From an uncultured Pelagibacteraceae bacterium (GTDB lineage Bacteria; Pseudomonadota; Alphaproteobacteria; Pelagibacterales; Pelagibacteraceae), in contig CACKHN010000006.1 of assembly GCA_902599995.1 (NCBI GenBank), forward strand, positions 1 through 64,000: a stretch of 64,000 nt of DNA, read 5' to 3'. The notes beneath the pieces were generated by a model. The model did not search any database. It was not told the DNA's origin and saw nothing but the letters and a program-made list of their open reading frames with translations. Shown here piece after piece: positions 1 to 4,905 of the stretch; within the stretch, counting starts at the first letter, position 1, and each line of letters starts with the position of its first letter. Made by a program: the position numbers and the translations under genes.

Positions 1-102
1 TTCCTCATTATCTAATGATAAATAAATTTCTTCTATTATCTTAGATTGCAAATATGACAAACTGGATATTCTTAGTTTATTTTCGTTACTTTTAGGAATC
101 AT
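1..102 (-). CDS. N-terminal part of an ORF running off the left edge (MIPKSNENKLRISSLSYLQSKIIEEIYLSLDNEE...), function unknown
   Basis: Open minus-strand frame from ATG at 102..100 to base 1, not in the supplied ORF track; divergent from the NotI-like ORF with a 17-bp gap. Confidence 0.5.
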   Translation of the reverse strand, partial: MIPKSNENKLRISSLSYLQSKIIEEIYLSLDNEE

Positions 103-119
103 TTTGCTAGATTTATATC

Positions 120-1001
120 ATGAAATTCGTTTCAGAAATATTTGGATTTAATTCAAATTTTCAAGATTTAAACATTAACGAAAGAAAGAATTATTTATGT
201 CCTTTCCAGGAAAAAGGTACCTCTTGTGACCCTGTTAATAAAAAATCAAATCTTATAGATAATGATGGTAATAAATTATTAAACCATCAAACAGGTGCTT
301 GTAGTTGTAATTATAAAAGTTTAGGAAATAATTCTTTTAAACCTGTAATAATTTGTCCATTCAGATTTTTAGAAAAAGATCAAAATAAAGAGACTAAAGT
401 ATTTAAAAAAATTAAGGACTTTTTTTATAAAAATGATGAAATTGCATTTGTTAAGGAAGTTGGTTTGGGACCTTATGGACAAGCAGATTATATGATTGCT
501 AAATTTGATAAAAAAAAAAATATCATTGATTTTGGTCATTGTGAATTTCAAGCGGATGCTACTACTGGCACAAGAGGAATTGTAGAATGTGTAAAAGATT
601 TTTATAATAAAAAAGATATTAATAAAAATTATTCATTTGGTTTAAATACAAAAGCAACAATCAAAGGTTTTTCATTACAAATGATTGATAAAGGTTATTT
701 ATTTCAAAAATTAAAAAAACCCTCTATTTGGGTTATGCAGGATAATTTAATTCAAATATTTTCAAAGATTTATAACCTTCAACTAAATGAAGAAAAAAAC
801 TTTAATATTAAAAGTAAAAATAATATTTTTATTTTAGAAACCAAATTAAAGGAAAATAAAAAAGATAAAAAATTTGATTTGAATTTAGGTAGAATTTTAT
901 CAACTAATCCTAAAAAAATTCAAAATGCTCTTTCAAATAAAGAAACAATACCTGAAAAAAAAATTTTAGAATCAATCAAGTCTAGATATAAACATAGATA
1001 A
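120..1001 (+). CDS. NotI-like type II restriction endonuclease
   Basis: Recalled NotI features: N-terminal F(V/I)xE(I/F)FG, four-Cys pattern (LCPF, TSC, ACSC, ICPFRFL) like the NotI iron-binding fold, and D...E-F-Q (QADYMI / HCEFQ) matching the NotI D/ExQ catalytic residues. Confidence 0.75.
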   Translation: MKFVSEIFGFNSNFQDLNINERKNYLCPFQEKGTSCDPVNKKSNLIDNDGNKLLNHQTGACSCNYKSLGNNSFKPVIICPFRFLEKDQNKETKVFKKIKDFFYKNDEIAFVKEVGLGPYGQADYMIAKFDKKKNIIDFGHCEFQADATTGTRGIVECVKDFYNKKDINKNYSFGLNTKATIKGFSLQMIDKGYLFQKLKKPSIWVMQDNLIQIFSKIYNLQLNEEKNFNIKSKNNIFILETKLKENKKDKKFDLNLGRILSTNPKKIQNALSNKETIPEKKILESIKSRYKHR

Positions 1002-1030
1002 ACATACAGATTAAAAGTCAAGAAACCGTC

Positions 1031-1079
1031 TTTTGAATTGCTTTTGAATTGCTTTAAATAGTGATGAAGAGTGATGAAG
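1031..1079. repeat. Two adjacent perfect tandem duplications: ttttgaattgc x2 (1031-1052) and agtgatgaag x2 (1060-1079)
   Basis: Read directly from sequence. Confidence 0.9.
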
Positions 1080-1164
1080 GAATTTTCAAAATGTTAAGTA
1101 AATCAAGTATTATTAGAAACCAGTATGAGAATGTAACCTATATTATAACTTTTGAAAATTCTAA

Positions 1165-1200
1165 AAAACCCCCCAATTTATATTTAGGGGGTTTTTTTTT
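1165..1200. terminator. Strong intrinsic terminator (A-tract, C5-6, loop, G5, T-tract)
   Basis: aaaaaaccccccaatttatatttagggggttttttttt; lies between convergent genes. Confidence 0.85.
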
Positions 1201-1240
1201 ACCGAATACAATCCAACTTATCATAAATAAAAAGCTACGT

Positions 1241-2086
1241 TCAATGATCTTTTTTTTCTTTGATAATAATTGAAATAAATTTTCTCCTGTAAGAGACACA
1301 GTTATTTTCTGCATTTAATCTTTTGTATATTAATTTAAAATCAATTAATTTTTGTTTCTTTAATTCACTCAAAGTCTCATAAGCACCAATTGAATTGTAA
1401 ATTTTGTCTGACTCCTTATGGCTTATATCTAGTAATATATCATCGCAAGCAATTATACCATTATCTTTTACTAGGTTAATTGCATTAATTATATCAATAC
1501 TTATTATCGGATAACCATGTGCTCCATCTACCCAAATCAAATCATATTTTATTTTATGATTAATTAATTTAATTGAGTTCATAGGCATAAATTTTATATT
1601 TTTTCCTAAAGATAAATTTTTTTTTCTATTTTCTATAAATTTAATTAATTGATTTTTTCTTTTATATGACACAATGAAATCTTTATCATCTTCTGGTAAA
1701 TCTATGGTTGAAACTTTTGCATTCGGAAATAGATAAGATAACAGAAGTGCATTAAAACCATCATAAGTCCCAATTTCTAAAATATTTTCAATTTTCAAAT
1801 TTTTTTTAATTGAAATACTTGATAGCATAATTTCATGTTCTGAGCTCATCTCTCTATTTGTATTAACACTTAAGTCAATTTTTTTTTTAATTTTATTCAA
1901 ATTTTGTATGCCCTCATCTCTATTTAATCCACATGAGCGAAAAATATCATCCTGTTTATTTTTATAATAATTAAAATTATAATTCTTTAACTTTAAAAAA
2001 TAATTTATCTTTCTGAGAATCTTTGAAGGAATTTTGAGTGGATTGCTTAGATGATTGGCAATTTTTGTAATTAAAACTTTTATCAT
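1241..2086 (-). CDS. Class I SAM-dependent methyltransferase (Methyltransf_24-like)
   Basis: ILEIGTYDGFNALLLSYLFPNAKVSTIDLP SAM motif and DLIWVDGAHGYP. Confidence 0.8.
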   Translation of the reverse strand: MIKVLITKIANHLSNPLKIPSKILRKINYFLKLKNYNFNYYKNKQDDIFRSCGLNRDEGIQNLNKIKKKIDLSVNTNREMSSEHEIMLSSISIKKNLKIENILEIGTYDGFNALLLSYLFPNAKVSTIDLPEDDKDFIVSYKRKNQLIKFIENRKKNLSLGKNIKFMPMNSIKLINHKIKYDLIWVDGAHGYPIISIDIINAINLVKDNGIIACDDILLDISHKESDKIYNSIGAYETLSELKKQKLIDFKLIYKRLNAENNCVSYRRKFISIIIKEKKDH

Positions 2087-2232
2087 TTGTATTTTGAATT
2101 ATCTTTATACTTATAAATCAAGTCAAACATATAAGTTTTAAATAGTGTTAATTTACATCAATATACTAACTTTTTTTAGTATTTAAATTAAAGTACTGAC
2201 ATATAAAAGTAAATTTTATATAAAAATTACAT

Positions 2233-2349
2233 ATGTCAAAAAGATATAGTGGAAAGTCTTTCAAAGACTCAAGTATTAAAAAAAAAGCAAAATTCAGTTT
2301 TAAAGAAAAAAGAAAAATTAAAAAAGATAAGAAGAAAAGACCAAATTAA
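2233..2349 (+). CDS. Small Lys-rich basic protein, 38 aa: MSKRYSGKSFKDSSIKKKAKFSFKEKRKIKKDKKKRPN
   Basis: Complete ATG-to-TAA frame below the ORF-track length cutoff, followed by a weak hairpin plus T-tract at about 2366-2395. Confidence 0.45.
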   Translation: MSKRYSGKSFKDSSIKKKAKFSFKEKRKIKKDKKKRPN

Positions 2350-2434
2350 ACATCAAAATTAATAAAATCTTCCCTAAAGATTAGTTTTTTTTAAGTTTTA
2401 AAAATTAATTAAATATGTATAAGGACCACATTTT

Positions 2435-4261
2435 ATGACAAAAGATATAAGAAACATCACTATTATAGCCCATGTAGACCACGGTAAAACTACTTTGATT
2501 GACAATTTAATGAAGCAAAGTGGGTCATTTAGGGAAAACGAAATTGTTGACGAAAGATTAATGGATTCTGGTGAATTAGAAAAAGAAAGAGGTATTACAA
2601 TTTTAGCAAAACCTGCTTCAATTAATTGGAAAGATACAAGAATAAACATAATTGATACGCCAGGTCACAGAGACTTTGCAGCAGAAGTTGAAAGAGTTTT
2701 AAGTATGGCTGATGGTGCTCTGCTCCTTATAGACTCTGCAGAAGGAGTAATGCCTCAAACAAAATTTGTTTTATCTAAGGCTTTAAAACAAGGACTAAAA
2801 CCAATTGTTGTAATTAACAAACTTGATAAGTCCGATCAAAGGGCTAATGAAGTTTTAGATGAAACATTTGATTTATTTGTAAGCCTAGATGCAAATGAGG
2901 AGCAATTAGATTTCCCAGTTTTATACGCAAGTGGCAGATCAGGATGGGCAGACACTGAAGTGGACGGACCTAGAGAGAATTTAAATCCACTTCTGGATTT
3001 AATTTTAGATCATGTAAAACCAGCAAAATTTGAAAAAGAAAAACCTTTTGCAATGTTATCTACACTTCTTTATGCAGATAGTTTTTTAGGAAGAAGCTTA
3101 GTAGGCAGAATTACCCAAGGAACCGCTAAAGCTAATCAGTCAATAAAAGCAATTAATTTAAAAGGTGAAAAAGTAGATGAAGGTAAACTGACTAAAATTT
3201 TTAGATATGAGGGAACTAAAAAAGTACCAATTGAAGTTGGTGAGGCTGGGGATATTGTAGTTATAGCTGGATTAGAAAAAGCTAATGTTGCAGATACCAT
3301 TTGTGATTTAGATGTAAATAAACCAATTTCAGCAACACCAATAGATCCGCCTACAATGTCTATAACTATAACAGTTAATACATCTCCTCTAGCGGGTAAA
3401 GAAGGTAAAAAACTTACGAGCACTCAAATAAGAGACCGACTTCTTCAGGAGGCTCAAAATAATGTTGGAATTACTTTTGCTGAAAATAATGGTAATGATT
3501 CGTTTGTTGTAAGTGGTAGAGGTGAGCTTATGTTAGAAATTTTACTTACCCAAATGAGACGAGAAGGATTTGAAATGACAGTCAGTCCTCCTAAAGTTCT
3601 ATATCAAACAGATGAAAGTGGAGAAAAACTTGAGCCTATTGAAGAAATCACGATGGATTTAGACGAGGAATACTCCTCAAAAGTAATAGACTCGATGAAT
3701 AGAAGAAAAGGTAAACTAATAGATTTAAAAGACACCGGGAAAGACAAAAAAAGATTAATTTTTCATGCACCAACGCGAGGTTTAATGGGTTACACAAGTA
3801 GATTTTTAACCTTAACCAAAGGTAACGGAGTTATTAATAGAATTTTTCATAGCTACGGGCCTTTTGAAGGTGAAATGGAGGGAAGAAGAAACGGAGCTTT
3901 AATTGCAATGGAGCAAGGTAAAGCAGTTGCTTTTGCCATATTTAACTTGCAGGCCAGAGGAGAAATGTTTGTAACACATAACGACCCTGTATATCCTGGT
4001 ATGATAGTTGGATTGTCTCCAAAACCAGGCGATATGATAATCAATGTTATGAAGGGAAAAAAATTAACTAATATGAGAACACAGGGTACCGATGAAAACG
4101 TTGTTCTCACTCCAGTAAGAAAAATGTCTATTGCGGAACAACTTAGTATGCTTAATACAGATGAAGCATTAGAAATTACTCCTAAGTCTTGTAGATTAAG
4201 AAAATCTATTCTTGATCCACATGAAAGAAAGAGAAGTGAAAAATCTGGAGCAGCAGCCTAA
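2435..4261 (+). CDS. typA: Translational GTPase TypA/BipA
   Basis: NITIIAHVDHGKTTL, DERLMDSGELEKERGITI, NKLDKSDQR; full length. Confidence 0.97.
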   Translation: MTKDIRNITIIAHVDHGKTTLIDNLMKQSGSFRENEIVDERLMDSGELEKERGITILAKPASINWKDTRINIIDTPGHRDFAAEVERVLSMADGALLLIDSAEGVMPQTKFVLSKALKQGLKPIVVINKLDKSDQRANEVLDETFDLFVSLDANEEQLDFPVLYASGRSGWADTEVDGPRENLNPLLDLILDHVKPAKFEKEKPFAMLSTLLYADSFLGRSLVGRITQGTAKANQSIKAINLKGEKVDEGKLTKIFRYEGTKKVPIEVGEAGDIVVIAGLEKANVADTICDLDVNKPISATPIDPPTMSITITVNTSPLAGKEGKKLTSTQIRDRLLQEAQNNVGITFAENNGNDSFVVSGRGELMLEILLTQMRREGFEMTVSPPKVLYQTDESGEKLEPIEEITMDLDEEYSSKVIDSMNRRKGKLIDLKDTGKDKKRLIFHAPTRGLMGYTSRFLTLTKGNGVINRIFHSYGPFEGEMEGRRNGALIAMEQGKAVAFAIFNLQARGEMFVTHNDPVYPGMIVGLSPKPGDMIINVMKGKKLTNMRTQGTDENVVLTPVRKMSIAEQLSMLNTDEALEITPKSCRLRKSILDPHERKRSEKSGAAA

Positions 4262-4905
4262 CTAAAAATTTTATTAACAATAAATAATCCAAAAGCAACG
4301 CAGGGTCCAATTCCAAAAGCAAAAATCAAAGTTCCAAGACCTACCGTACCACCCAGATACCACCCAACTATTACAACTGAAATTTCTAAACATGCTCTGA
4401 CTGAAGCAATAGGTAAGTTTGTCATTTTTGTTAAGCCAGTCATTAATCCATCTCTTGGACCTGGACCAAGATTTGCCACTAAATAAATACCACTTCCTAT
4501 CCCAACCAGCATTACTGATAATATTGAGAGTAAATATTTATACCAAACGGAAGATGGGGCATCAAAGAAATATAAAGTTATATCGATCATTGCAGAAATA
4601 ATAATAATATTAAAAATAGTTCCCAAGCCTGGTTTCTGTTTTAAAAATATCCATAACAAAAGTACACTTACACTAACTAGAAATGTTGCTGCACCAATAG
4701 ATAATTTAGAATTTTTAGAAATACCCTCTGCTAGTACAGACCAGGGAGAATTCCCTGTAGTTGATAATATTAATAATCCCTCTCCAAAACCAAATATAAT
4801 TAAACCAAAAATTAAAAAAAATGATGTTGATAATTTCGGTTTGAGGTTAAAGCTTTTATCTGAGCTCCAATATACCTTAGGAATATTTTTAATAGATAAA
4901 AACAT
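4258..4905 (-). CDS. YczE/YyaS/YitT family membrane protein
   Basis: Multi-TM protein with LGPGPRDGLMTGL motif. Confidence 0.8.
   Translation of the reverse strand: MFLSIKNIPKVYWSSDKSFNLKPKLSTSFFLIFGLIIFGFGEGLLILSTTGNSPWSVLAEGISKNSKLSIGAATFLVSVSVLLLWIFLKQKPGLGTIFNIIIISAMIDITLYFFDAPSSVWYKYLLSILSVMLVGIGSGIYLVANLGPGPRDGLMTGLTKMTNLPIASVRACLEISVVIVGWYLGGTVGLGTLIFAFGIGPCVAFGLFIVNKIFS

Follow-up and report, generated by a model that had tools for sequence, protein, structure and literature searches.

Several kinds of mobile element are known to leave a conserved gene intact at the site that they enter: SCC elements at rlmH and islands at tRNA genes integrate at the 3' end of such a gene and restore it. 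Some of these elements carry restriction-modification (R-M) genes within a variable cargo. Among restriction endonucleases, NotI is known for its iron-binding Cys4 motif and for a glutamine in place of the catalytic lysine (PMC4081073). SAR11 genomes are thought to be poor in anti-phage systems: a survey found putative systems, all of them R-M, in 19 of 172 genomes and in 0 of 14 MAGs (PMC11066056).

We analyzed a stretch of 64,000 nucleotides ("the window") from a SAR11-like bacterium. The window begins at base 1 of contig C6 (98 kb), which belongs to a 947-kb assembly of 23 contigs with 29% GC and an estimated completeness of 79%; its size, composition, and gene content point to SAR11/Pelagibacterales. 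We propose, with a probability of roughly 0.7, that the gene at 120 to 1001 encodes a divergent NotI-family Type II endonuclease and occupies the final position in a small mobile cassette that entered at the groEL stop codon. The features that bear on this reading are as follows.

1 to 102, minus strand: truncated open reading frame ("the stub"), 34 visible residues (MIPKSNENKLRISSLSYLQSKIIEEIYLSLDNEE), running off the contig end; may not be a gene
120 to 1001, plus strand: predicted NotI-family Type II restriction endonuclease, 293 amino acids, ATG start; profile match, PDB profile match, fold match, and invariant Cys4 and E/D/ExQ residues
1031 to 1136, plus strand: putative right end of the cassette, 106 bp, starting with two tandem copies of TTTTGAATTGC, with GATGAA twice, and a groEL-like stop context (ATGAGAATGTAA) at its end
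1137 to 1200, plus strand: groEL-type 3' untranslated region and intrinsic terminator (hairpin CCCCC...GGGGG and a T-run), apparently displaced rightward
1241 to 2086, minus strand: class I SAM methyltransferase of the Methyltransf_24 type (Pfam PF13578, E = 6.7e-9), which does not act on DNA by type; apparently separate cargo
2233 to 2349, plus strand: small basic protein (MSKRYSGKSFKDSS...), a conserved neighbor of typA and the right border of the hotspot
2435 to 4261, plus strand: typA/bipA GTPase, a core gene flanking the hotspot, 88 to 95% identical in relatives and usually beside groEL
Contig C19 of the same genome, positions 1 to 4100 (4.1 kb; locus L024): 5'-truncated m4C-type (PF01555, TSPPY) Type II methyltransferase, 420 amino acids

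A preliminary description of this DNA, made from the letters alone, had proposed a NotI-like endonuclease at 120 to 1001 with a divergent reading frame starting at 102. Both reading frames lie where it placed them, with 17 bp between them, and all of the residues that it had pointed out in the larger one were verified: the F-x-x-E-I-F-G N-terminus; the cysteines C27, C36, C61, and C79; and D123...E142-F-Q144. The endonuclease-like gene starts close to the end of C6, with just 119 bp upstream of it. The stub exits the contig itself and not merely the window, which leaves no sequence on its left for direct reading. A run of 34 stop-free codons has a chance probability of about 0.04 at the local composition; the stub is weak as a gene and could be due to chance.

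Single-sequence searches with the endonuclease in Pfam, NCBIfam, PADLOC, and the PDB returned nothing, and the curated model for NotI (PF12183) matched no protein of this genome, the window protein included. Comparison to plasmids with tblastn gave a single weak independent match (E = 4e-3), a Thermus brockianus enzyme annotated as belonging to the NotI family. Starting from this match, we gathered ten NotI-family members. The window protein is very divergent (about 20 to 25% identity). Against a profile of the ten members, with the window protein excluded, it scored 75.2 bits; the best of 1000 shuffled sequences reached 5.3 bits and the reversed sequence reached -1.8. When the PDB was searched with the profile from all 11 proteins, NotI itself was matched (3bvq, E = 4.6e-11), and both the cysteines and the E-x-Q motif aligned. 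A single-sequence search of viral and genome contigs identified no near relatives of the endonuclease; the profile search did succeed. We rejected one weak match, in another sampled genome (G007), which has stop codons and adjoins other, unrelated genes.

In the alignment of these 11 proteins, E6, G9, C27, C36, C61, C79, E113, D123, E142, Q144, K182, Q187, and K191 are invariant. The four cysteines, which align to those of NotI, are also invariant or nearly so in a broader alignment of 63 rows, and two additional cysteines, C63 and C141, lie outside the conserved set. E113, D123, E142, and Q144 correspond to an active site of the PD-(D/E)xK type, with glutamine replacing lysine. An AlphaFold model built from the 63-row alignment had a pLDDT of 81.5 and a pTM of 0.81, and when it was compared to solved structures with Foldseek, the only matches below E = 0.001 were the two chains of NotI (3c25_A and 3c25_B; E = 1.7e-8 and probability 1.00 for 3c25). 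The region of the model around C27, C36, and C61 is of low confidence, and co-location of the cysteines is not part of the evidence from the model, so the metal site is argued from conservation. Overall, the window protein shares with NotI (PDB 3bvq and 3c25, Pfam PF12183) the N-terminal E-x-x-G, the cysteine pattern CPF...C...GxC...CP-R, the equivalents of E113, D123, and E142-x-Q144, and the overall fold. It differs in being just 12 to 14% identical or so over the structural match, in being 90 residues shorter, and in coming from a genome with 29% GC. Given the profile built without the query, the profile match to 3bvq, and the fold match to 3c25, the family assignment made in the preliminary description holds: as far as sequence and predicted fold can show, the gene encodes a NotI-family endonuclease.

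Profile scans of 84,980 species genomes identified 80 further members of the family, spread across many phyla, and none of them is from an organism named as SAR11. Within its own family, among some 370 sampled genomes, this genome is the only one to carry the gene. Nearly all NotI-family members adjoin a DNA methyltransferase. At about 77 of 93 loci this is a D12 m6A methyltransferase, usually directly downstream and often overlapping; at 8 loci, an m5C methyltransferase takes its place. With partners of the D12 type, most of the family would be unable to modify a GC-only site, and a NotI-type enzyme need not cut one. These neighbors argue for specificity that varies within the family, and they mostly remove the puzzle, raised in the preliminary description, of a NotI-type enzyme in a very AT-rich host. 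The sequence GCGGCCGC does not occur in the 64-kb window, C15, or C19, which is uninformative at 29% GC.

The window protein shares the endonuclease family and the conserved motifs with the D12-paired enzymes (about 75 loci in addition to that of T. brockianus pTbrSNM4-1c). In those loci, however, the methyltransferase gene follows directly, whereas here the putative cassette end follows and no D12 gene was found in the genome. In a tree of the family, the protein forms an extremely long, deep branch near the m5C-paired group, which includes plasmid-borne pairs from Roseivivax, Pseudomonas, and Variovorax; because the branch is so long, this placement is unsure. Unlike the hosts of those pairs, this genome contains no PF00145 gene.

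In relatives, groES and groEL precede typA. Across the 69 genomes in which both borders of the gap between groEL and typA could be placed, the gap is short in 31 (137 to 464 bp) and filled in 38 (0.7 to 5.7 kb). Two close relatives by groEL, G838 and G777 (99% identical), have short gaps of 271 to 273 bp. The small basic protein beside typA is also present at empty sites (L146, L147, L149 to L151, and L168/L170). The cargo of the filled sites includes FkbM methyltransferases, DEAD helicases, sulfotransferase-like proteins, D12 DNA methyltransferases, and a Type I R-M system. We considered whether the gap might be purely a hotspot for defense genes and rejected this, as most of the cargo consists of FkbM methyltransferases, DEAD helicases, and others. 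In one genome (G799), the gap holds only a homolog of the O-methyltransferase at 1241 to 2086 (78% identical). The gaps of two other loci (L199, 473 to 1980, and L200, 439 to 1377) encode proteins of 324 and 313 amino acids, apparently the two D12 m6A methyltransferase matches from the scan of the cargo. On contig C12 of another SAR11-like genome, G715 (L161, 2329 to 7415), a restriction-type helicase and two methyltransferases, one of them a confirmed match to PF01555, lie directly beside groEL.

Directly downstream of the NotI-like gene, the 106-bp sequence at 1031 to 1136 is 100% identical to a sequence beside Type I R-M genes in G038 (L177, 5390 to 5495) and 98.1% identical to sequences in L185, L190, and L221. 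Core genes of the four genomes with this right end are 75 to 90% identical, and typA in particular is only 83% identical between the window and G038. The similarity around the 106-bp sequence stops abruptly on both sides. At its end, ATGAGAATGTAA mimics the last codons of groEL (ATGGGAATGTAA), the groEL stop codon is copied (GAATGTAA), and a groEL-type terminator comes next. At other sites, what follows the right end can be traced to groEL: the right flank in L190 agrees at all of 80 bp (100% identity) with the groEL 3' untranslated region of the empty site L147; that of L176 is identical over 55 nt to the corresponding region of the empty site L149; and several other right flanks show 82 to 100% similarity. 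For the window's own right flank, the best match among the sampled groEL 3' untranslated regions is only 0.57 to 0.63, so the insertion in this genome is argued from the identical end sequence. Because the displaced terminators elsewhere match empty sites so closely, up to 100%, the NotI-like gene is most likely cassette cargo. Its assignment to a mobile cassette at the groEL site is well supported.

The putative left end, which adjoins groEL, has three GATGAA repeats at 11-bp spacing and is 96 to 99% identical in C15, L221, L190, L185, and L177. C15 is another contig of the window genome, and its copy (L162, 3056 to 3169), like that of G837, matches the reference left end at 99% identity. In some genomes with an empty site, the first 61 bp of the left end are the native groEL 3' untranslated region, so just the repeat part is specific to the cassette. 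In 1.1 Mb of these sequences, we counted 16 three-copy GATGAA arrays (some of them twice, in overlapping loci), and a shuffled copy contained none.

The window genome's own groEL lies on C15 (4.9 kb), where it is followed by a 168-amino-acid gene and then by a candidate defense gene of the PDC-S57 type. From synteny, and not from a joined contig, we infer that C15 and C6 would be the two borders of one island. As to the two genes on C15, the 168-amino-acid gene (L162, 3222 to 3728) adjoins the candidate, which encodes a T5orf172 protein on the minus strand (3742 to 4350) with a PADLOC match to PDC-S57 (E = 1.8e-71).

Compared to SCC elements and tRNA-site islands, the putative groEL cassettes are alike in their precise insertion at a gene end, the rebuilt stop, the short direct repeats, and the variable cargo that includes R-M genes. 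They differ in their target (groEL), in the small size of the cargo (1 to 5 kb), in the tandem 11-bp end repeats of the GATGAA type, and in the recombinase: none was recognized or named among the cassette proteins and cargo-protein families listed. In integron gene cassettes, too, the cargo is small and exchangeable and the end sequence is conserved, but the groEL cassettes have a fixed site, no known intI, and an end that lacks an attC-like hairpin. No exact match to the cassette ends was found in viral contigs.

For the missing METHYLTRANSFERASE, we searched the 79%-complete genome and found no PF00145 (m5C) gene and no PF02086 (D12) gene, and an R-M partner of the NotI-like gene is absent from the assembly. 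A search with PF01555 identified a CcrM-like gene on C1 and the m4C-type Type II methyltransferase at the start of C19, which is convergent with a TM0106-type RecB-like nuclease-helicase. We compared the stub to the N-termini of relatives of these proteins and of the m5C and D12 enzymes with which the family is usually paired. The preliminary description had named the divergent reading frame as the first candidate for the methyltransferase, and this was not borne out: its 34 residues match m5C, D12, and m4C N-termini no better than shuffled sequences do. The stub as the N-terminus of the C19 helicase was rejected on the same grounds, the match being no better than for shuffled stubs. We also rejected the methyltransferase at 1241 to 2086 as the partner, since it is of the Methyltransf_24/O-methyltransferase type and stands alone in the G799 site.

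The C19 methyltransferase is a possible yet unsupported candidate for the partner. It might have formed a divergent pair with the NotI-like gene, the stub being its N-terminus, and it is the sole other non-CcrM DNA methyltransferase from the three families that we searched for in the genome; furthermore, a 30%-identical relative of it adjoins groEL in G715. We consider this pairing doubtful. Besides the poor match of the stub to the N-termini of its relatives, the alignment suggests that the C19 protein misses just a few residues, C19 does not contain the cassette ends, and NotI-family enzymes are otherwise paired with D12 or m5C methyltransferases. No sequence links C19 to C6, and we rejected a join of the two contigs for lack of evidence. 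Slightly less doubtful, though still unlikely, is that the gene is an orphan or decaying restriction gene that has no methyltransferase and is kept by chance in a site with fast turnover. Its occurrence in a single genome, its extremely long branch, and the lack of D12 and m5C genes in the assembly as it stands would fit. However, the reading frame is intact over 293 codons and retains all of the catalytic and cysteine positions, its GC content at third codon positions (12%) fits the AT bias of the host, and about one-fifth of the genome, together with the sequence directly upstream, is missing from the assembly.

We also considered whether the 106-bp sequence, instead of ending a cassette, might be an RNA or a regulatory element that is conserved in the groEL-typA region. 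It does lie near terminators, and its tandem repeats resemble the sites of regulators. But it has no match in Rfam and folds no better than shuffled sequences (z = -0.11), which disfavors both an RNA and an integron attC site. Also, it is absent from most relatives, including the near ones G838 and G777; it adjoins unrelated cargo with abrupt boundaries; and displaced groEL 3' untranslated regions follow it. We view this as quite improbable.

Returning to the NotI-family endonuclease as the last gene of a cassette, the enzyme would be a nuclease of the PD-(D/E)xK type, with glutamine for lysine and a Cys4 metal site, and it would cut unmethylated DNA at a palindrome that is not necessarily GC only. 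The point of entry would be exactly the stop codon of groEL, GAATGTAA being the shared core. The cassette would have the tandem 11-bp GATGAA repeats near its ends and would bring a new groEL terminator on its left. Because it supplies this terminator and its right end reproduces the stop context of groEL, groEL would stay intact. Further to the left, a part of the island that is missing from the assembly probably encodes the protecting methyltransferase; the enzyme is presumably active and would restrict phage DNA; and a recombinase acting in trans may move the cassette. We infer a functional R-M system, which would be consistent with part of the preliminary description's proposal of a defense or selfish R-M module. 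Since the mobile, hypervariable site in which the gene sits holds R-M genes of Type I and Type II elsewhere, it is plausible that the gene is defense or selfish cargo; as for the module, no methyltransferase is linked to the gene in the assembly.

More broadly, we lean toward the view that SAR11-like bacteria have families of tiny, integrase-less, site-specific cassettes (1 to 5 kb, with 11-bp tandem end repeats) at the groEL stop codon. These would rebuild the terminator and carry genes from one species to another (R-M, candidate defense, and others), the NotI-type enzyme being one cargo among these. If so, the gap between groEL and typA is a fixed, searchable address at which streamlined marine bacteria exchange defense and other genes, and the cassette ends are a testable recombination site. 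How such bacteria gain flexible genes with few recognizable mobile elements would become directly testable. Also, counts of defense systems in SAR11 may be too low, since so divergent a NotI-type enzyme was invisible to all of the single-sequence library searches that we used. We found no description of groEL cassettes of this kind in the open papers that we searched, which is not proof of novelty.

Other end types, with CAATGAAGTTTT repeats that end in GAATGTAA, occur at the groEL site in L208, L215, L218, L176, L146, and L155. The site and the architecture are common to at least two related end types, and this suggests several related families of cassettes. L218 (1288 to 1454, from G037) has its left and right ends fused with no cargo between them, as would be expected had recombination between the repeat arrays removed it. 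Finally, C15 contains an inverted right-left pair of ends (L162, 4475 to 4744), a sign that there may be several cassettes in the island.
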